A DNA stretch of 56,905 bases from Gammaproteobacteria bacterium (GTDB taxonomy: Bacteria; Pseudomonadota; Gammaproteobacteria; S012-40). The first letter of the stretch is position 1, and each line of letters begins with the position of its first letter. The stretch lies in NCBI GenBank assembly GCA_029884425.1, contig JAOUHV010000014.1:1-56905 (forward strand), given 5' to 3'. Below are positions 17,648 through 27,970 of this stretch, piece by piece. The position numbers and the translations under genes were made by a program. The notes under the pieces are model-generated. The model had not been told where the DNA came from, did no database searches, and saw only the letters and a program-made list of their open reading frames with translations.

Positions 17648-19735
17648 TTAGAGCAAACCGAACAGGAATTTCCCGGATTTTTTCTGCTGGCTAATCATAT
17701 CTGCCAGCAATTTGTCTTGGTTGCGCTGGGCAATTTCTCGCGCATGTTCATTGCGCTGATTGCGTATTGCGGCATCGGCACCTGCGTCCAGCAACAATTT
17801 CACTGTGTCGCTGTCACCGCTGCGCACCGCCAAAATCAATGCAGTATCACCCGCACCATTTTTCTCATCCAGCCTGGCTTTGGCGCTGACCAAATATTTT
17901 ACCAGCAGCGATTCACCTGACGCCGATGCCAACATTAATGCCGTGTTCATTTCGCTGTTTTTCAGGTTTACGTTGGCTCCGGATTTCAATAACAGACTGA
18001 CAATCGTGGGACGCTGCTTCTTGATAGCAACCATCAGAGGAGTAAATCCCTGTTTGTCCGGAGCATCAACCGATGCGCGATACTGCAGCAGTAACTCTGC
18101 CGCTTTGAGGTTGCCGCTATCAGCGGCATGCCACAGCGCAGTTTTGCCATAGGCATCACTCACATAGGTTTTTGCGCCCCGCTGCAACAACGCGGCAACC
18201 ACCTCCGTCGGCAATTGTTCGCGAATCGCCAAAGCCAATGAAGGCAAAGCACCACCAGGCACGCGATTGACATCATTCATGCGCGGCATCAACGATTTAA
18301 CAATGTCGACATGCTGATAACCCATGGCCAGCAGCAATGCATCGTTGCCGTCTTTCCCAACATGATCAACATCCGCCTTCGACGCCAATAGCAAATCAAC
18401 AACCTCGCGATGACCATTTTCTGCAGCGTACATGAGCGGCGTATAACCCACCTTGTCTGTGGCGTTTACGTTCGCACCATTGTTGATCAATAAAACGACA
18501 ACCTTGAGATGACCTTCTTCTGCCGCGCGTAATAGCGCTGTTTTGCCATCTTTGTCCTGCTCGTTGATGCGTACATTTTTATTCTGCAGAATACGCTCAA
18601 GCAACTTATCCTGTCCTCGCCAAGCCGCCTGCACAACCAGCGGATAACCCGCATACGTGCCGTTTTCCTGAACGTCTTTGAGCGAGCGTTCTGTCAGTGG
18701 CAAATTGACATCAGTCTTCTCGTCACTTTGCACCAAACGCGTTTTGACTTCTCCAGGCATTTTTGCGCCGGCATCTTCGAGCAATTTCTGCAGTCGCTTA
18801 TCATCATTTTGTTTGGCAAACGAATACGCTGACCAGCCCTTTTTATTTTTCAGCTCCAAATCGGCACCGGCCTTTACCAACCGGGCTGCCATATCCCAAT
18901 TTTTGTCTCTGGCCGCGATGATCAATGCACTATTTCCCTGAGCATCCACCACATTCACCGCCGCACCGGCCTGCAAAAGCGCACTCACCATAACTTGGTC
19001 GCTATTTTTTACCGCCACCAGCAACGCGGTCAGTTGATGCTTATTTACCTGATTAACCGCCGCGCCACGGGAAATCAATAATCGCGCAACTTCATCGTTC
19101 TTGCGTTCTGCTGCCAAGATCAATGGTGTGTTACCGTATTCGTCCGCTGCATTCACATCGACCTTGCCGCGCAACAATCGGCGAATCTGCGCGATTTCGT
19201 TATCCAGCACCGAGTCACGCAACCACTCTTCATTGCTGACCTGGCGCTTGTCATTTTCACCATCCTCAACCAGCGGCGTGCTCACCTGATCCAGCGTTTG
19301 TAATTTTTTTTGTGCCTGTGAATAACCTAATTTGGCGGAATTTTCCAGCCAGAATCGCGCGAGCTTCGCATTGTAGCCAACGCCTTTTTCATCCAGGTAC
19401 ATGACACCGACAAGATAGGCCGCTTTTTTGTGCTCGCGTTCGGCAGCTTTCAGCAACAACCCCATAGCAACTTTGTCGTTAGCCTCAACACCAATGCCAT
19501 TTTTATAAAATACACCCAATTGGTATTGGGCATCGGCTTCGCCTTTGTCGGCCAACTTTTGCAACAAATTTATCGCTGCAACATAGTCCTTCACTCGTAC
19601 TGCACGATCAATTTGTTGATATTGTTCGGTATATTTTTTATCGCCTTCTGCTTGCGCAGCCAATGGAGCAGCGACAAACAGACTGCACACCAACAACAGC
19701 TGCATCTTCAATTTAGTCATATCAAAGTGTGCCAT
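17648..19735 (-). CDS. Exported Sel1-ankyrin repeat protein
   Basis: A 695-residue protein with a signal peptide (about residues 9-30, ending A-A-P-L-A-A-Q-A). Two Sel1-like repeats follow (A-Q-Y-Q-L-G-V-F-Y-K-N-G-I-G-V and a second ending at ~130). From ~195 to ~680 there are about a dozen ankyrin repeats (N-x-P-L-I-L-A-A, N-V-N-A-T-D-K-V-G-Y-T-P-L-M-Y-A-A). It is probably a periplasmic protein-binding scaffold. Its start overlaps the stop of the ferredoxin-flavoprotein gene by 14 bases, so they are co-transcribed; ATG 19720 (M-T-K-L-K), just after that stop, is an alternative start. Its position next to the multiheme locus suggests a role in that system, but nothing in the sequence proves it. 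Confidence 0.82.
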   Translation of the reverse strand: MAHFDMTKLKMQLLLVCSLFVAAPLAAQAEGDKKYTEQYQQIDRAVRVKDYVAAINLLQKLADKGEADAQYQLGVFYKNGIGVEANDKVAMGLLLKAAEREHKKAAYLVGVMYLDEKGVGYNAKLARFWLENSAKLGYSQAQKKLQTLDQVSTPLVEDGENDKRQVSNEEWLRDSVLDNEIAQIRRLLRGKVDVNAADEYGNTPLILAAERKNDEVARLLISRGAAVNQVNKHQLTALLVAVKNSDQVMVSALLQAGAAVNVVDAQGNSALIIAARDKNWDMAARLVKAGADLELKNKKGWSAYSFAKQNDDKRLQKLLEDAGAKMPGEVKTRLVQSDEKTDVNLPLTERSLKDVQENGTYAGYPLVVQAAWRGQDKLLERILQNKNVRINEQDKDGKTALLRAAEEGHLKVVVLLINNGANVNATDKVGYTPLMYAAENGHREVVDLLLASKADVDHVGKDGNDALLLAMGYQHVDIVKSLMPRMNDVNRVPGGALPSLALAIREQLPTEVVAALLQRGAKTYVSDAYGKTALWHAADSGNLKAAELLLQYRASVDAPDKQGFTPLMVAIKKQRPTIVSLLLKSGANVNLKNSEMNTALMLASASGESLLVKYLVSAKARLDEKNGAGDTALILAVRSGDSDTVKLLLDAGADAAIRNQRNEHAREIAQRNQDKLLADMISQQKKSGKFLFGLL

Positions 19736-21035
19736 ACTTGGTTTGCACCTCTATACCAATGGTTCGCAAAAAGTCAGTCGGCAACACACCACCAGCACAA
19801 ACAATCACCGCATCATTCTCAATTTCCAAAGGTTCATCGCCTTGCCGCAATTCAACTCGATCAGAATGAATTCGTATCACTTCCGAGTTCAACAGCAGAC
19901 GCAAGCCTTTTTTCGCCTGACATAGTTCAAGACGATCGCGGTTACCCTGTTTTATCCGTGAAAAGACTTCGCGCCGATAAGACAGTGTCACTTCATGGTT
20001 GCCCAACTCCGCGATCGCACAAGCAGCCTCAATCGCACTGTCGCCGCCGCCAACGACCAACACGCGATGGTCAACATATTGCTCGGGGTCCATCAGGCGA
20101 TAAACCACTTTCGGCAATTCTTCACCCTCGACATCTAGTTTTCGCGGCGTTCCACGTCGACCAATCGCGAGCAAAACACAACGGGTATGATACGACTGTT
20201 GATTGGTTGTCAGAATAAAATCGCCTTTTTGGCCTTCTATTTTTTCCACGCGCTGATGATAGTGAACATTCAATGGATACTTTTCATTCATCTTGGTGAA
20301 AAACTCGAGCAATTCCTCTTTGGTTGTTTGTCGAAAATGCAGTCCACCAACCAAAGGTAATTCCACTGGCGATGTCATAACCAATTTTCCACGTGGATAT
20401 TGAAAAATTGCACCTCCCAAGGATTCTTGCTCAACAACCAGGTAACGTAAATTATATTTTTTCGCAGTTAATGCCGCCGCAATACCTGCTGGCCCTGAGC
20501 CAACAATAATCACGTCGTAGGGTACATTGCCTGTCGCAGATTTTAACTCTGCCATCATTCCATCTATCGCTTGTACGCCCTGGGTCATTGCGTTGCGAAT
20601 CAAACCCATGCCACCCAGTTCACCGGCAATGTAAACGCCGGGCACATTAGTTTCAAAGTTGGGTTTGACCAACGGAATATCCACACCGCGGGTTGCGGTG
20701 CCAAACACCAATGAAATCGCCCCCGTTGGACACACTTCTTTGCAAGCGCCGTGACCAATGCACATCGCCGCGTTTAACAATCCCGCACGGCCATAAATCA
20801 ATCCCAACACTTTTTTTTCCGGACAGGCATCGACACACGAACCACAACCAATACAACGCGCCGGATCAACAATCGGATGCAGTGAGCTAGGTTCACCTAA
20901 ACCCGCACTGTGCGCCAATTTACGTTTGGCCAGATTTTGCCAGGTGCGCTGACTGCGAAGAATGGCATACACCCCCCATGAGCCTACAAACAAGGCAACG
21001 TAAATCGCCAGCGAAAATAAATCGTTTTCATCCAT
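19722..21035 (-). CDS. Membrane-anchored 2[4Fe-4S] NAD(P)-flavin oxidoreductase
   Basis: A 437-residue protein. It has one N-terminal membrane segment (about 5-25) and a ferredoxin domain with C-I-G-C-G-S-C-V-D-A-C-P and C-I-G-H-G-A-C-K-E-V-C-P; the His at the second ligand place of cluster two is, as far as I recall, usual for this family. A thioredoxin-reductase-like part follows, with FAD motif V-G-S-G-P-A-G and NAD(P) motif V-G-G-G-D-S-A. No C-x-x-C redox pair is present in the flavin domain, as in YpdA-type enzymes. It could move electrons between NAD(P)H, ferredoxin and a membrane partner. The gene diverges from the cytochrome operon at 21270 across a 234-base gap, and the two units are probably functionally linked. 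Confidence 0.85.
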   Translation of the reverse strand: MDENDLFSLAIYVALFVGSWGVYAILRSQRTWQNLAKRKLAHSAGLGEPSSLHPIVDPARCIGCGSCVDACPEKKVLGLIYGRAGLLNAAMCIGHGACKEVCPTGAISLVFGTATRGVDIPLVKPNFETNVPGVYIAGELGGMGLIRNAMTQGVQAIDGMMAELKSATGNVPYDVIIVGSGPAGIAAALTAKKYNLRYLVVEQESLGGAIFQYPRGKLVMTSPVELPLVGGLHFRQTTKEELLEFFTKMNEKYPLNVHYHQRVEKIEGQKGDFILTTNQQSYHTRCVLLAIGRRGTPRKLDVEGEELPKVVYRLMDPEQYVDHRVLVVGGGDSAIEAACAIAELGNHEVTLSYRREVFSRIKQGNRDRLELCQAKKGLRLLLNSEVIRIHSDRVELRQGDEPLEIENDAVIVCAGGVLPTDFLRTIGIEVQTKYGTL

Positions 21036-21269
21036 GGAGAATATTACTAACTGCTCATTTAGAAAGAGTTGATCAATTAAAGCGCGCAGATAATAGCAAA
21101 GCTATCTGCACAATTCATCCCACTGGGCACGATGATTGCCATTACTGCGCAACCTGGCGTATGCGAACTGTCACATCATTTGTGCTAGAATGCGCGCGTT
21201 CTGGCTACTAACCCTGCACGTTGATTTAACCTGCTGAAATTCGTCATTTATTTTGAAGTACACAGAAAC

Positions 21270-23666
21270 ATGAATACTCTGCATCATGAGCGTTTTGCTC
21301 TGTTTTTCAAGGCAATGCTGCAATACGTCAGCGTAACATTAGTCGTCATTTTCTCTGGCCTGTCGGTTGCGGCAGACAGCATTCCGACTAATGAAAAAAC
21401 GCCCTTCAATCATTTCGCCACAGGATTTCCGCTCATTGGTGCGCACAGCAACGAAGATTGTTCATCCTGTCATGTCGGCGGCATTTTCAAGGGAACCCCG
21501 ACAGGCTGTAAAAACTGTCATCAACAAGGCAGTGCTGTCGGCGCCAGCAGTAAACACAATCAACACATTGCCACCAGTAACGAATGCGACCGTTGCCACA
21601 ACCAACAAAAATGGTCTGACATTTCCCGCGTTGATCACACACAAACACTAGGCAGCTGTCAGTCGTGTCACAAAAGTTTGCTGACCTCTGCCAGCCTGCG
21701 CCACATTCCGTTTAGCGGCGACTGTGATACCTGTCACCTGCCGCGCGGCTGGGAAATAAATTCGTTTAATCACTCTAAAACCGGCTCTTTAGCCTGTTCC
21801 GGTTGCCATAACGGCAGCACTGCCGTCATGGGCAAAGGTCGCAACCATATAGCCACCACACAAGAATGTAATGATTGCCACACCGTGGGGGGTGCTTGGG
21901 AACAAGCACACGTCAATCACAATGTGGTCACGACGGCGTGCTCGGCGTGTCACAATGGTGCACACACCTTTGGTAAACCCAATACTCACATAGTTACCAA
22001 TTTGGAGTGTGATGCGTGCCATTTGCGCACCGCCTGGACACCAGCAACGTTTGTTCACCCCGCCAGTACATCAGGTTGCGCCAACTGTCATAACGGCATA
22101 CAGGCGATGGGCAAAACCCGTGACCATCTAGTCACCACTCTGGATTGCAGTTCGTGCCATACATCCAAGGGTTGGGTGCCGGCCAAGTTTGACCATTCAT
22201 CCGCAGGCGCCGCCTGTTCGACCTGTCATAACGGCACCAAGGCCACCGGCAAATCAAGCAATCACCTGCCAACTGCACAGGAATGTAGCGTCTGTCACAA
22301 GACCACCGCCTGGCAGCCCGCAACTTTCAGTCACCAAGGCATCGGCAGCAATTGTTCAAGCTGTCACAACGGCAAGATATCCACCGGCAAAACAGTCAGC
22401 CATCCGCTAACCACGCTGGAATGCGGCGCCTGCCACAGCACCAACGCCTGGACGCCGGCGACTTTCGATCACAGCGGCAGCAGCTCGGCCTGTTCAACGT
22501 GTCACAACGGCACCAAGGCCACCGGTAAAACCGCCAACCACGTACCAACCACGCAGGAATGTAGCGCCTGTCACAGCAACAAAGCCTGGACGCCCGCGAC
22601 CTTCAGCCACGTGGGCGTCACCCAAGCCTGTTCCAACTGCCATAACAATGTCATCAGCACCGGTAAGACAGCCAACCACTTTATAACCACGCTGGAATGC
22701 GGTGCCTGCCACAGCACCAACGCCTGGACGCCGGCGACTTTCGATCACAGCGGTAGCAGCTCGGCCTGTTCAACCTGTCACAACGGCACCAAAGCCACCG
22801 GCAAAACCGCCAACCACGTACCGACCACGCAGGAATGTAGCGCCTGTCACAACAACAAGGCCTGGATTCCCGCGACGTTCAGCCATGTGGGCGTGACCCA
22901 GGCTTGCGCGACTTGCCACAACGGCACCATTTCCACCGGCAAGAGCGTTACTCACGTCACCACGCTACTGGACTGCGGTCGCTGCCACACGACAAATGCC
23001 TGGCTGCCCGCGACGTTTGACCACACCGGCGCCAGCCTGGCCTGCTCAAGCTGTCACAACAACACTACCGCCACGGGTAAAAGTGCAAGCCACGTAACCA
23101 CAACCTTAGAGTGCGGCAACTGCCACACCACGTCCGCCTGGCTACCCGCCAAGTTTGACCACAGTGGCATTTCCGGCAACTGCTACAGTTGCCACAACAG
23201 CACTACGGCCACGGGCAAACCAACGACTCATATCGTGACCACTGCAGACTGTAACGCCTGCCACACGACCACCGCGTGGATGCCTGCCACTTTCAGCCAC
23301 AGTGGCATTACCAGCAACTGTGCAAGCTGTCACAACGGCACTGCTGCGACTGGCAAAGCCAGCAATCATTTTGTCACATCCAACGATTGCTCCAACTGTC
23401 ACAACACCAGCAACTGGTCAACGGTGGTATACGAACATGCATCGATAAATTATCCCGGTGATCATGCCGTCGCCATTTCCTGTACCAACTCGTCATGCCA
23501 TAGCAGCGGTTCTCAGGCAGTAACCTGGAAATTTACCGCCTACGTCAACAGTTGTGCGGGCTGCCACGCGGATAATTTCGTTGCCAATGAACACAACAAA
23601 ACACTCAGCGAATTACGCAATTGCGCTGGCTGTCATGAACACAGCGTTAGAAACACCCGCTGGTAA
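21270..23666 (+). CDS. 31-heme c-type cytochrome (giant multiheme)
   Basis: A 798-residue exported protein: signal peptide about 1-35 (ending S-V-A-A), then an almost unbroken string of heme sites from residue 64. I count 31 CxxCH motifs plus one CTNSSCH (C-x4-CH, residues 738-744). Most of the chain is a ~46-residue two-heme unit: T-T-x-E-C-x-x-C-H ... A-W-x-P-A-T-F-x-H-x-G, then A-C-x-x-C-H-N-G-x-x-x-T-G-K-x-x-x-H. The extra His in each half suits bis-His ligation. Residues 381-564 are two 92-residue copies. It is probably a molecular wire in the periplasm or at the cell surface. Strong GGAGG precedes the next gene 15 bases on. A candidate extended -10 (TGCTAGAAT, 21183-21191) lies upstream, without an obvious -35. 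Confidence 0.93.
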   Translation: MNTLHHERFALFFKAMLQYVSVTLVVIFSGLSVAADSIPTNEKTPFNHFATGFPLIGAHSNEDCSSCHVGGIFKGTPTGCKNCHQQGSAVGASSKHNQHIATSNECDRCHNQQKWSDISRVDHTQTLGSCQSCHKSLLTSASLRHIPFSGDCDTCHLPRGWEINSFNHSKTGSLACSGCHNGSTAVMGKGRNHIATTQECNDCHTVGGAWEQAHVNHNVVTTACSACHNGAHTFGKPNTHIVTNLECDACHLRTAWTPATFVHPASTSGCANCHNGIQAMGKTRDHLVTTLDCSSCHTSKGWVPAKFDHSSAGAACSTCHNGTKATGKSSNHLPTAQECSVCHKTTAWQPATFSHQGIGSNCSSCHNGKISTGKTVSHPLTTLECGACHSTNAWTPATFDHSGSSSACSTCHNGTKATGKTANHVPTTQECSACHSNKAWTPATFSHVGVTQACSNCHNNVISTGKTANHFITTLECGACHSTNAWTPATFDHSGSSSACSTCHNGTKATGKTANHVPTTQECSACHNNKAWIPATFSHVGVTQACATCHNGTISTGKSVTHVTTLLDCGRCHTTNAWLPATFDHTGASLACSSCHNNTTATGKSASHVTTTLECGNCHTTSAWLPAKFDHSGISGNCYSCHNSTTATGKPTTHIVTTADCNACHTTTAWMPATFSHSGITSNCASCHNGTAATGKASNHFVTSNDCSNCHNTSNWSTVVYEHASINYPGDHAVAISCTNSSCHSSGSQAVTWKFTAYVNSCAGCHADNFVANEHNKTLSELRNCAGCHEHSVRNTRW
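22410..22961 (+). repeat. 276-bp tandem duplication, four hemes per copy
   Basis: Copy 1 (22410-22685) and copy 2 (22686-22961) encode residues 381-472 and 473-564 of the 31-heme cytochrome. By eye 81 of 92 residues are identical, and the first ~50 codons are almost unchanged, with mostly silent differences. The rest of the gene repeats at protein level (~138-bp two-heme unit) but is more diverged at DNA level. Confidence 0.88.
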
Positions 23667-23680
23667 CGCAAGGAGGACAT

Positions 23681-24580
23681 ATGCAAAATTCCAACGAGCT
23701 GACTTACTCGGCTAACGAATCACAATCCAGCAGCGTGAAATCGCTGCGCGATCGCATATTCTCGCTTATCGGCATGCCGATGTTGTTTGTGCTGGTCACT
23801 CTCGCGATCGTTCAGGCCTGGCTGGTGAAAGACTATCGCTTTATTGATGCGGAAGAAGGTCTCGGCTATTGGTTGGGCATCGGTGGCGGCGTATTGATGC
23901 TGCTGCTATTGTTATACCCCCTCAGAAAGCACATTAACGCCCTGCATTTTCTGGGAAAAATTAACGTCCTGTTTCGCATCCATATGGTGTTCGGCATCCT
24001 GGGGCCAACACTGATTGTGCTGCACACCAATTTTCAACTGGGCGCACTCAACAGCAACGTTGCATTGTTCTGCATGCTGATTGTCGCTACCAGTGGACTG
24101 ATGGGACGCTATCTGTATTTCCGCATCCATAGTCGCCTCAGTGGTAAAAAACTGACTACGCTCGAATTGCAAAAGCAGTCACTGGATAGTTTGCGACAGC
24201 TCAATGAAGACTTGCCAAACTTCAACCATCTGACGGATTACCTGGATCGCTACAAAAACGAAGGTCACTATTTCGACCACAGCATGCTCGGATTTATTTT
24301 CAGCCCCTGGCTACGTTTAAAGCGTTTTCTGATTTATCGCGACCTGTCATCTCGCTGCCAAGCGAGCATAAAAGAGCATACATCCGATAAAAAACAACAG
24401 AAACTACTGATTAGCCGTACACAAAAAAATCTGAAATTGTATATTTTCAGTGTACTTCGCCTCGCCAAACTTGACCTATATCAACGGACGTTCTCATTGT
24501 GGCACGTGCTGCATTTGCCCCTGTTCATGATGATGCTGGTCACTGGAATTTTCCACGTTATAGCCGTACACATGTATTAA
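23681..24580 (+). CDS. Predicted diheme cytochrome b membrane protein
   Basis: A 299-residue inner-membrane protein not matching a named family for me. Five hydrophobic helices are seen (about 29-48, 63-82, 96-117, 124-147, 270-296) with a basic cytoplasmic-type loop between the fourth and fifth. Two helices each hold a pair of His 14 apart: H101/H115 and H278/H292. This H-x13-H pattern on two helices is that of the diheme four-helix core of cytochrome b. Lying between two multiheme cytochromes, it is the natural candidate for passing electrons between the quinone pool and the periplasmic hemes. Start ATG 23681 follows AAGGAGG; the next gene begins 4 bases after the stop. Confidence 0.75.
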   Translation: MQNSNELTYSANESQSSSVKSLRDRIFSLIGMPMLFVLVTLAIVQAWLVKDYRFIDAEEGLGYWLGIGGGVLMLLLLLYPLRKHINALHFLGKINVLFRIHMVFGILGPTLIVLHTNFQLGALNSNVALFCMLIVATSGLMGRYLYFRIHSRLSGKKLTTLELQKQSLDSLRQLNEDLPNFNHLTDYLDRYKNEGHYFDHSMLGFIFSPWLRLKRFLIYRDLSSRCQASIKEHTSDKKQQKLLISRTQKNLKLYIFSVLRLAKLDLYQRTFSLWHVLHLPLFMMMLVTGIFHVIAVHMY

Positions 24581-24584
24581 ACCG

Positions 24585-26267
24585 ATGAAATTCTGCTCCA
24601 TATTCGTTAGCGCGCTTTTGCTATTTTTCAGCGTACTCAGTGAAATCCAGGCCGCCAATATTGAGCGGCTGGTCATGCCTGGAAAAGTTATCAAGGGCCA
24701 TGCAAAATACGAGGAAAACTGCGACAAATGTCATGAGTCCTTCAAAAAGGCAGATCAAACCAGACTCTGCCTGGACTGCCACAAAAAAGTGGCTGACGAT
24801 ATTCGCCAAAAAAACCGCTTTCACGGCATCAACAGCGACACCCGCACGGCGCCATGCAAGCAGTGCCATAGCGAACACCTTGGCCGTGATGCCGACATCG
24901 TTCTATTCAACAAAGATTTGTTCAATCATGAGCAAACCGCCTTCAAGTTAACCGGTGCCCACACCGGCGCTTCCTGTGCTGCCTGTCACAAGGCTGACAA
25001 GAAATACCGCGAGGCCGAAACAAAATGTTTCGCCTGTCATGAAATAATCGACTCACACAACAAAAAACTGGGCGAAGATTGCGAAAAATGTCATTCCACC
25101 AAACATTGGAAAACCACCAAATTTGATCATGACAAAACAAAATACCCGCTAATCGGCAAACATCAGGATGTCAATTGCGAGCTTTGTCACCCGGCAAACA
25201 AGTATAAAGACACGTCCAAGCAGTGCATTGCCTGCCATCGCATTTCAGACACCCACCAGGGAAAGTACGGCGAAAAGTGCGAACAATGCCACGACAGCAA
25301 ACGCTGGGATAAAAGCTCATTCAATCATGACAAAACCGTTTTCCCCCTGCGTGGCGCCCATATTCCGGCCAAGTGCCGTTCTTGCCATGTCAAAGACCTA
25401 AAAGAAAAATTGAAGACTGCTTGCTTTGACTGCCATGAAAAGCAGGACAAACATAAAGGCGATCTGGGCAAAAAATGCGATAGCTGCCATACGGAAAAGA
25501 CCTGGGCGAAAATCGCCTTTGAACACAGCAAATACAAAAACGAGACATGCTACAGCTGCCACCAGAAGGATGATGAGCACGCACTTCGCTACGGCAAAAA
25601 ATGCGAAACCTGCCATCGCACCGAGAACTGGACTAAGCAGATATTCGATCACAAGAAAGACGCCAACTATGCGCTTAATGGCAAACACAAGGATGTTCGC
25701 TGTATTTTTTGTCACAAAGGCAAAGCCAGTGATGAAAAAGACAAAACCAAATGCATCCAGTGCCACGCTATTGATGACGTCCACTTAGGCAAGCAAGGGA
25801 AAAAGTGCAACCAGTGCCATGAAGAAGCTGGCTGGAACAAAAATGTAAAATTTGATCACGACATGAGCAATTTCCCGCTCATCGGCCTGCATGCCAGCAC
25901 AGCCTGCTCCGAGTGCCACATTAACTCGAGATATACAGATACAAGCAGTGCTTGTTACAGCTGCCACAAAGCCGACGACACACACAAAGAAACGCTAACG
26001 CACCAGTGTGCACTTTGCCACAACCCAAACAGCTGGCGTTTTTGGCAGTTCGATCATGACAAACAAAGTAAATTCAAACTTACCGGCAGGCACAAAAAGC
26101 TGCATTGCTCGCAATGCCACAAAACAGCGACTGACAAAAAAATAGAACAGTCGGGGAGCTGCGTCGCCTGTCACCGTGCAGACGACGAACATAACGGTCG
26201 ATTTGGCAGCCAGTGCAATCAATGCCACAACACAGAATCGTTCAAGCAGGTCACTGTCAAACAATGA
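24585..26267 (+). CDS. 23-heme c-type cytochrome
   Basis: A 560-residue exported, Lys-rich protein: signal peptide about 1-23 (ending E-I-Q-A) and 23 CxxCH motifs, on average one per ~23 residues. The chain is a repeating module, F-D-H-D-K-x-x-x-P-L-x-G-x-H-x-x-x-x-C-x-x-C-H, followed by C-x-x-C-H-x-x-D-x-H and G-x-K-C-x-Q-C-H, giving about three hemes per ~70 residues. The spare His residues can serve as distal ligands. Its basic character contrasts with the Thr/Ser-rich 31-heme protein, so the two probably occupy different places, for example periplasm and porin lumen or surface. It ends in an ATGA overlap with the porin gene, which makes a physical partnership likely. Confidence 0.92.
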   Translation: MKFCSIFVSALLLFFSVLSEIQAANIERLVMPGKVIKGHAKYEENCDKCHESFKKADQTRLCLDCHKKVADDIRQKNRFHGINSDTRTAPCKQCHSEHLGRDADIVLFNKDLFNHEQTAFKLTGAHTGASCAACHKADKKYREAETKCFACHEIIDSHNKKLGEDCEKCHSTKHWKTTKFDHDKTKYPLIGKHQDVNCELCHPANKYKDTSKQCIACHRISDTHQGKYGEKCEQCHDSKRWDKSSFNHDKTVFPLRGAHIPAKCRSCHVKDLKEKLKTACFDCHEKQDKHKGDLGKKCDSCHTEKTWAKIAFEHSKYKNETCYSCHQKDDEHALRYGKKCETCHRTENWTKQIFDHKKDANYALNGKHKDVRCIFCHKGKASDEKDKTKCIQCHAIDDVHLGKQGKKCNQCHEEAGWNKNVKFDHDMSNFPLIGLHASTACSECHINSRYTDTSSACYSCHKADDTHKETLTHQCALCHNPNSWRFWQFDHDKQSKFKLTGRHKKLHCSQCHKTATDKKIEQSGSCVACHRADDEHNGRFGSQCNQCHNTESFKQVTVKQ

Positions 26268-27970
26268 AAATTACCACCTCACTCTTTGTATTCGCCCTAA
26301 TGACAGGATATTCCGCTGCACATGCCGCCGAGATCAACAACACCACCAGTGTCACTGATGAACAATTACTGAAAATCATGGAAGATGCACGTCAGGCCAT
26401 GACCGCACATCAGTACATGATGGCCATCAAACTTTATCGACAACTTGCGGAAATGCCCGATCACGTTCTGCGTCAGGACGCGATTGAGTCATTGGGGTTA
26501 GCCTACGAACGTGCCGGCAAACAGGCTGATGCAAAGCGAGCATATGAGTATTTCTTGCAACTCTATCCCGACTCGGCCGCATCCGAGCGGATTCGTCAGC
26601 GCTTGGCCGGCATTGTGACCGCAACCTGGAAAGACAAGGAAAAGCTGGACAAGCCCAAAGAAAAAGCCGGCTCATCAACCTGGAACAATTATGGTTCATG
26701 GTCGCAATATTTCCGTCGTAATGGCAGCCTGGACGAAGACAACAAGGACATCGTCAATTTGAATTTGTTGTCCAGCAATCTGGATCTCAATGGTCGTGGA
26801 AAAATAGGTAATCTTGATTTAAAAACGCGCTTCACAGGCAGTGAAAATACCAATATCGACGATAGCAGCAACAATTACCAGACGCTCAATTATCTTTATG
26901 CCGAAATCAATAGCCGCGGCTCGGGCTTTTACAGTCGCATTGGCCGACAGCGCCCCAAAAGCGGTGGCATCATGGGCCGTTTCGATGGTGTTCATCTCGG
27001 CTATCACATCAATAACAGTTTAATTTTCAACGTAACTGCGGGTTATCCCGTGGACCGCTCAAAAAATATTTTTATTGATGACAGCCGTGAGTTTTACGGT
27101 GTAACGCTGGAAACAGGTCCGTGGCATGAGTACTGGCTTGCCAACATCTATGCTATCCGACAAATGTCGGAGTCTTATCTTGATCGTGAAGCTACGGGTG
27201 GTGAACTGCGCTATATTCACCCAAAACACAATCTGTACACCTTCGTCGACTATGACACGCATTTTGAAACATTAAATATTTTCAGCACCCAAGCCAGTGT
27301 GACCGCCAGCGAGAGCATCATATTTAATGCGTTCCTCGATGTCCGTCACACACCCACAGTGACCACGCGCAATGCCCTATTTGGTCAGCAGGTCACCACA
27401 TTGACCGAGCTGCACAAATCGAACAGTCCCGAAGCCATTCAGCAAATGGCGCTAAACAACAGCCCGAAATATTATTTGTCGATGGCATCGATGACTTATA
27501 AATTCAACAGCATGTATCAGTTGGATACCGACATAACCGCCAGCAAGTTGGAAACCTCGCCTAGCATGCCAGCCATGTCAGGCTCATCGAATCCGATGGA
27601 ATATTATTTTTCGACACGACTAACCATTAGCGAATGGTTTGGCAAACGCGATGTCAATATTGTTGGTCTGCGCTATGCCGACACGGCCAACAGCACACAA
27701 CAACAATTACTGCTCAACAGTCGCTTTTATGCCTCGGAAAAATGGTCACTCAATCCCAGCATCATCGTCGACAACCGCCGCTATAGCGGTAATAGTCAGC
27801 AGTCCGAACTTCGTGTTGTTCCAGGATTTCGAACCGAGTATCTAGCCAGCCGCAGCTTTAGTATGGACATGGAGATCGTGCCGGAATGGAGTGAACGCAA
27901 AGATACTGTGGGCAATTACGAATACAAAAACTACTACGTGAATATGGGATACCGTTACATTTTTGATTAG
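26264..27970 (+). CDS. TPR-containing outer-membrane beta-barrel (porin of the cytochrome conduit)
   Basis: A 568-residue exported protein. Signal peptide about 1-21 (Y-S-A-A-H-A), then a TPR-like periplasmic region (about 25-115: A-I-K-L-Y-R-Q-L-A and A-Y-E-R-A-G-K-Q-A-D-A-K-R-A-Y-E-Y-F-L). From ~130 to the end there are alternating amphipathic strands rich in Y, N, S and R, closing with G-Y-R-Y-I-F-D. The start ATG overlaps the 23-heme cytochrome stop; the longer frame from 26213 has no signal peptide. Function inferred from position: a barrel that sheathes a multiheme cytochrome across the outer membrane, as in porin-cytochrome complexes. It has no MtrB-type N-terminal C-x-x-C, so it is not a plain MtrB homologue. 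Confidence 0.8.
   Translation: MKITTSLFVFALMTGYSAAHAAEINNTTSVTDEQLLKIMEDARQAMTAHQYMMAIKLYRQLAEMPDHVLRQDAIESLGLAYERAGKQADAKRAYEYFLQLYPDSAASERIRQRLAGIVTATWKDKEKLDKPKEKAGSSTWNNYGSWSQYFRRNGSLDEDNKDIVNLNLLSSNLDLNGRGKIGNLDLKTRFTGSENTNIDDSSNNYQTLNYLYAEINSRGSGFYSRIGRQRPKSGGIMGRFDGVHLGYHINNSLIFNVTAGYPVDRSKNIFIDDSREFYGVTLETGPWHEYWLANIYAIRQMSESYLDREATGGELRYIHPKHNLYTFVDYDTHFETLNIFSTQASVTASESIIFNAFLDVRHTPTVTTRNALFGQQVTTLTELHKSNSPEAIQQMALNNSPKYYLSMASMTYKFNSMYQLDTDITASKLETSPSMPAMSGSSNPMEYYFSTRLTISEWFGKRDVNIVGLRYADTANSTQQQLLLNSRFYASEKWSLNPSIIVDNRRYSGNSQQSELRVVPGFRTEYLASRSFSMDMEIVPEWSERKDTVGNYEYKNYYVNMGYRYIFD

Follow-up and report, generated by a model that had tools for sequence, protein, structure and literature searches.

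The porin-cytochrome type PCC3, defined by He et al. in 2017 (PMC5566968), combines a porin, an extracellular multiheme cytochrome c (MHC; median 34 hemes), a periplasmic MHC (median 21 hemes), and an inner membrane protein (IMP) of ~300 residues with five transmembrane (TM) helices, SGXXG on TM4, and WX3HX13H on both TM3 and TM5. Two b hemes have already been proposed for this IMP, and the system is a putative electron route through the complete cell envelope (PMC5566968). PCC3 is widespread in Proteobacteria; its role in extracellular electron transfer is putative, as is any assignment of direction. In the MtrCAB, MtoAB, and PioAB systems, a porin with periplasmic and outer MHCs likewise forms a trans-outer-membrane wire. 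Here, we describe a four-gene operon and a divergently oriented neighboring gene, termed E, on contig JAOUHV010000014.1 of the gammaproteobacterial assembly GCA_029884425.1; the whole stretch analyzed, 56,905 nucleotides in length, is referred to as the window. The operon is almost certainly a PCC3 locus, and E, which is absent from the published four-gene definition, is a near-constant companion of PCC3; this companionship is the new part.

The assignment to PCC3 follows from a feature-by-feature match to the published definition, with a single Trp as the exception: the locus (Table 1) has the four genes, the IMP motifs, ~25 residues per heme, a T/S/A/G-rich repeat outer MHC, and a predicted β-barrel. 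An earlier note on this DNA had counted 54 hemes (31 + 23) in one tight operon and had likened it to PCC3; the open reading frames and motif counts confirm the former, and the match to the definition the latter. With only 12 scattered CxxCH motifs in all six frames of the remaining window, 54 in two genes is far above chance. Besides those in CxxCH, the two proteins contain 39 His for 31 hemes and 26 His for 23 hemes, making bis-His ligation possible for all. The 4-base gap and the ATGA overlap between the 23-heme gene and the porin gene are as that note gave them, and the first gap is 14 rather than 15 bases. Its suggestion that the membrane b-type gene makes this an undescribed variant does not stand, as both that gene and the proposal of two b hemes for it figure in the original PCC3 description (PMC5566968); the oxidation or reduction of an external metal or electrode that it also suggested is putative. 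The locus of Amphritea atlantica DSM 18887, which the 2017 study lists as a PCC3 reference with 63 and 21 hemes, came up independently as a homologue (L168) with identical heme counts and the same architecture.

Table 1. Features of the PCC3 locus and its surroundings, in window coordinates
Feature	Position	Strand	Remarks
Sel1-ankyrin repeat protein with signal peptide (F)	17648..19735	-	overlaps E end by 14 bases
Membrane-anchored ferredoxin-flavoprotein (E)	19722..21035	-	TM helix 8-26, ferredoxin-like domain, circularly permuted YpdA-like FAD/NAD(P) domain
Divergent intergenic region, E / four-gene operon	21036..21269	.	11-pair inverted repeat at 21083-21112
Large MHC, presumed extracellular PCC3 subunit	21270..23666	+	798 aa, 31 CxxCH
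IMP, predicted di-heme b	23681..24580	+	299 aa, 0 CxxCH
Periplasmic MHC	24585..26267	+	560 aa, 23 CxxCH in triads
Outer-membrane porin, tetratricopeptide repeat (TPR) + β-barrel	26264..27970	+	568 aa, no Cys

Relative to PCC3 as described, the locus differs in gene order, periplasmic heme number, porin length, and one motif residue. The customary order of IMP, periplasmic MHC, outer MHC, and porin, taken from ~45 loci of Gammaproteobacteria and 80 from named genomes, is departed from, with the large MHC lying ahead of the membrane gene; among 104 distinct IMP loci, an MHC gene preceding the IMP gene in the same orientation was found in the window alone, making this arrangement rare for PCC3. 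The 31-heme protein displays the many-heme, T/S/A/G-rich repeat character of presumed extracellular PCC3 subunits, with 42% T/S/A/G and a heme spacing of exactly 23 residues for 21 steps in succession, and its relatives show matching composition and 23/24 spacing. The 23-heme protein shares 39-47% identity with 21- and 24-heme periplasmic subunits, as expected of a PCC3 periplasmic MHC. The first MHC past the IMP typically has 21 hemes (67 loci), 18 hemes (12 loci), or 24 hemes (10 loci), with 23 encountered solely in the window; in alignment with 24-heme relatives, one heme segment is absent near residue 318, such that the protein looks like the 24-heme form minus this segment.

The IMP sequence shows five hydrophobic segments; TM3 carries H101/H115, TM4 SGLMG, and TM5 H278/H292, i.e., two HX13H motifs, in line with the membrane protein that the earlier note had placed inside the operon. 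Across 28 aligned sequences, the four His residues are invariant together with S138, G139, and G142. The Trp of WX3HX13H is kept on TM5 (W274); on TM3 its place is taken by Leu97, in a position occupied by Trp in at least 90% of relatives, indicating a substitution within the family. The structure model of the IMP (pLDDT 81.8) aligned to the Streptococcus pneumoniae NADPH oxidase (8qt6; Z 10.7, root mean square deviation 3.7 over 122 residues, VIA-align), to Dcytb (Z 8.4), and to NOX5 (5o0t; Z 8.3); these scores are in the chance range for helical bundles, unrelated examples of which score alike, so the fold is no more than suggestive of a two-heme cytochrome b. Pfam and NCBIfam scans of the IMP gave no match, including to the ferric reductase domain PF01794, and a plasmid search with its sequence was likewise without a match.

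For the porin, an AlphaFold2 model built from an alignment with 30 homologues predicted with confidence (mean pLDDT 87.7) a 22-strand β-barrel spanning residues 140-567, preceded by a five-helix TPR domain at residues 32-120, bearing out the TPR-β-barrel proposed in the earlier note. Its homologues sit with multiheme cytochromes rather than consistently apart from them, and many of the most conserved positions fall in the TPR part. Compared to ~50 homologous porins from other PCC3 loci, that of the window is the shortest. Fold matches were to generic barrels (TonB-dependent receptors, the OprD family, ushers), indicating no single family; MtrB was not among the matches listed, to which we attach no weight. 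PDB sequence searches with the IMP, the porin, and the periplasmic MHC returned nothing useful.

Assignment to an Mtr-type system was rejected. Neither the porin nor anything else in the genome matched MtrB_PioB (PF11854), the porin has no Cys and so lacks the CxxC of MtrB, as noted previously, which is N-terminal in the Shewanella protein, and both MHCs fell below the cut-off for the DmsE-family decaheme MtrA/MtoA model TIGR03508 (126 and 22 bits vs. 192). The 23 and 31 hemes also contrast with the 10 of MtrCAB, MtoAB, and PioAB, as does the predicted di-heme b membrane protein within the operon. The source genome (2.9 Mb, 98% complete) contains no MtrB/PioB, so its PCC3 does not act as an add-on to an Mtr system. 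PCC4, which comprises three periplasmic MHCs of 4, 5, and 10 hemes without an extracellular MHC, was rejected as well, the window locus having two MHCs of 31 and 23 hemes.

The association of E with PCC3 was examined in a class sample of 274 genomes, with E-value thresholds of ≤ 1e-20 for a PCC3-type IMP and ≤ 1e-60 for the E protein. Of the 34 genomes with a PCC3-type IMP, 33 contained E; of the 240 others, 2 did so (Fisher p = 5e-39, a value that overstates independence because the genomes are related); of the two E-positive genomes lacking an IMP, one holds a broken fragment and the other is incomplete. E is retained also in genomes that have it on a different contig (G097, G013) or at a distance of kilobases (G249, G047, G223). 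In a phylum sample of 349 genomes, two of whose IMP + E genomes also belong to the class sample, full-length PCC3 IMP and full-length E occurred in the same four. Named genomes were scanned with E instead of the IMP, the IMP alignment being too variable as a query (the window IMP alone gave no match). The resulting 80 E loci, which are best matches to E and thus no random sample, span Gamma-, Beta-, and Alphaproteobacteria; an IMP is present in 66 of them, mostly divergent from E, and a PCC3 gene was found in every one of the 29 loci flanked by 8 kb or more on each side. Among the 80 is the locus of Bradyrhizobium sp. STM 3843, a listed PCC3 carrier (PMC5566968). E is thus very probably tied to PCC3 in function. 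In the PCC3 literature examined, E is not mentioned, nor was a paper found that links PCC3 to FAD, ankyrin, TPR, or thioredoxin-type genes; supplements lie outside this coverage, and priority is therefore not established. Both E and F fall outside PCC3 as defined in the published main text.

The bulk of E is predicted to lie in the cytosol, given its negative N-terminus and the basic stretch past its TM helix (positive-inside rule). Its ferredoxin-like domain has two cluster motifs, CxxCxxCxxxCPE, in which the second Cys is at times Ser, Ala, Thr, Gly, or His, and CxxHxxCxxxCP, in which His stands in place of a cluster Cys in 110 of 111 distinct sequences. Residues 170-434 match YpdA best (E value 2.8e-42), with thioredoxin-reductase-type ferredoxin-NADP reductases also matching. 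A role as a thioredoxin reductase was discarded, as the CxxC of these enzymes is missing from the flavoprotein part; it is likewise absent from the YpdA bacillithiol disulfide reductase and from thioredoxin-reductase-type ferredoxin-NADP reductases, from both of which E is set apart by its permutation, its membrane anchor, and its fusion to a ferredoxin domain. Permutation of the flavoprotein domain is evident from its alignment with a flavoprotein of a PCC4-like locus (L087): E residues 173-429 align to residues 4-270 of that protein, and E residues 120-158 to its residues 279-317, whereas E re-ordered in silico gives a single continuous alignment (8e-57). In all 90 sequences with both motifs readable, the C-terminal FAD motif precedes GxGPAG, and segment 120-158 also matches C-terminal parts of solved flavin reductases. 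Judged from these alignments, the domain is circularly permuted.

PCC4 and related IMP-decaheme clusters (PMC5566968) resemble the window locus in having a related five-helix IMP and an adjoining Fe-S flavoprotein; in three of the four PCC4-like loci inspected, this FAD/NAD(P)/Fe-S protein is encoded immediately upstream of the IMP relative. There, however, the flavoprotein is unpermuted and carries cyclic-nucleotide-binding domains, and the clusters have small cytochromes and lack a giant outer MHC. Three such loci (L087, L089, L090) encode, in this order, a flavoprotein with two cyclic-nucleotide-binding domains plus Fe-S domains, the IMP relative, and a decaheme cytochrome, which in L087 carries an FHA domain; two more genes and a second multiheme protein follow.

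We propose, with moderate confidence, that the whole is best explained as a PCC3 conduit with E as its likely cytosolic redox partner. E would relay electrons between the IMP, at its inner b heme, and NAD(P)H or a soluble carrier, and the two b hemes of the IMP would carry them across the inner membrane; the 23-heme cytochrome would serve as a periplasm-spanning wire and the 31-heme cytochrome as an outside wire, with the TPR-barrel porin connecting both through the outer membrane. The chain would thus run from NAD(P)H or a soluble carrier via FAD and the Fe-S centers of E to the IMP b hemes, the 23-heme wire, the porin, the 31-heme wire, and the outside. Such an electron-transfer reading of E draws on its domains, its conserved partnership, its predicted cytosolic placement, and the FAD/NAD(P)/Fe-S protein of PCC4-like loci. 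E and the IMP would constitute a split, NADPH-oxidase-like chain in which E is the dehydrogenase half: NADPH oxidases and ferric reductases share with this pair two HX13H heme-b motifs and an FAD-NAD(P)H part, possibly E. Unlike their dehydrogenase part, E would be a separate chain carrying Fe-S clusters, and its flavoprotein type is that of YpdA/thioredoxin reductase rather than the ferredoxin-NADP reductase fold; the link is putative. That PCC3 as a whole acts as a transenvelope NAD(P)H:extracellular acceptor oxidoreductase instead of a metal-oxidation conduit limited to quinones, with permuted E feeding an NADPH-oxidase-like di-heme b and this in turn the heme wires, is offered as a tentative and rather doubtful extension. 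As a near-obligate redox partner, E would offer a testable site of electron entry or exit at the inner membrane. Its well-conserved stretches GELGGMGL and CIGHGAC provide a marker for PCC3 genomes, including those in which the repetitive cytochrome genes assemble badly.

PCC3 might instead be served by the quinone pool only, with the IMP as a quinone-active di-heme cytochrome b and E an accessory off the main path. Di-heme b proteins commonly react with quinones, and this is the model published for PCC3, where it is a hypothesis (PMC5566968); nonetheless, E accompanies PCC3 in all but one of 34 genomes and is very rare elsewhere, and its FAD, NAD(P), and Fe-S domains are predicted to face the cytosol, leaving us to regard a quinone-only system as fairly unlikely. 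As the main alternative for E, it and F, along with the CycH-like gene of relatives, could also form a maturation or assembly module for many-heme cytochromes with no part in electron transfer. Co-occurrence of E with PCC3 fits such a role as well, a CycH/CcmI-like gene does lie between E and the IMP in several relatives, and F, as an exported Sel1-ankyrin protein, is a typical binding scaffold; yet E lacks the redox CxxC of thiol reductases, and E-like flavoproteins accompany IMP relatives in PCC4-like loci that have only decaheme cytochromes. We consider a module of this kind improbable, and whether E is an electron entry/exit module rather than an assembly factor is an even call.

As regards direction, NAD(P)H as a partner makes outward flow downhill both chemically and electrically, so the outward direction is the easier, while bringing electrons inward from Fe(II) to NAD(P)+ would be a steep climb in energy. 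This thermodynamic barrier counts against the locus being an extracellular Fe(II)- or mineral-oxidation pathway with electrons moving inward, for which the source genome itself provides some grounds: among its four RuBisCO-family matches, three of them strong, are large-subunit genes, so the organism may be an autotroph. Several iron oxidizers carry PCC3 (PMC5566968, PMC10734462), and in strain CL21 one PCC3 IMP is up when cells can oxidize iron (PMC12442390). In Sideroxydans ES-1, however, expression of both PCC3 clusters drops on Fe(II) (PMC8788666), and magnetite brings no clear induction of them, one of the outer cytochromes being undetected (PMC12016527). Fe(II) oxidation by PCC3 is therefore unsupported by most published expression data, and we deem it unlikely here.

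Several points weigh against the conduit with E as cytosolic redox partner. To the fit of a maturation role, the CycH/CcmI-like gene of relatives, the CL21 response, and the relatedness of the genomes behind the Fisher value must be added that (i) one PCC3 genome that is 97% complete (G012) has no E at the threshold used; (ii) a Foldseek search with the IMP model returned no significant match; and (iii) it is from indirect evidence that we infer the contact between E and the IMP, the cofactors of E, the use of NAD(P)H, and the direction of flow, as well as heme wiring and localization.

Among neighboring features, F lies near E in 67 of the 80 E loci. Between E and the IMP, L052 (5840-6742) and L168 (8828-9706) contain a CycH/CcmI-like gene for cytochrome c maturation, recognized by Pfam, and L098 (8884-9636) a similar one by eye; the window has none at this site. 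Likewise lacking in the window is an exported protein of 148-190 residues that several PCC3 loci encode between outer MHC and porin (L053:13357-13902, L063:2507-2953, L060:5366-5824, L076:13956-14528); the one scanned against Pfam gave no match. In the region between E and the operon, a promoter scan gave hits at chance level; the inverted repeat there is a possible operator or hairpin. The window IMP is 43-44% identical to IMPs of some other families vs. 25-40% to those of its own, which hints at a lateral origin. In the window's family (G007, G008), two divergent PCC3 copies occur in one genome, far in sequence from that of the window, which suggests that PCC3 has moved laterally among family members.

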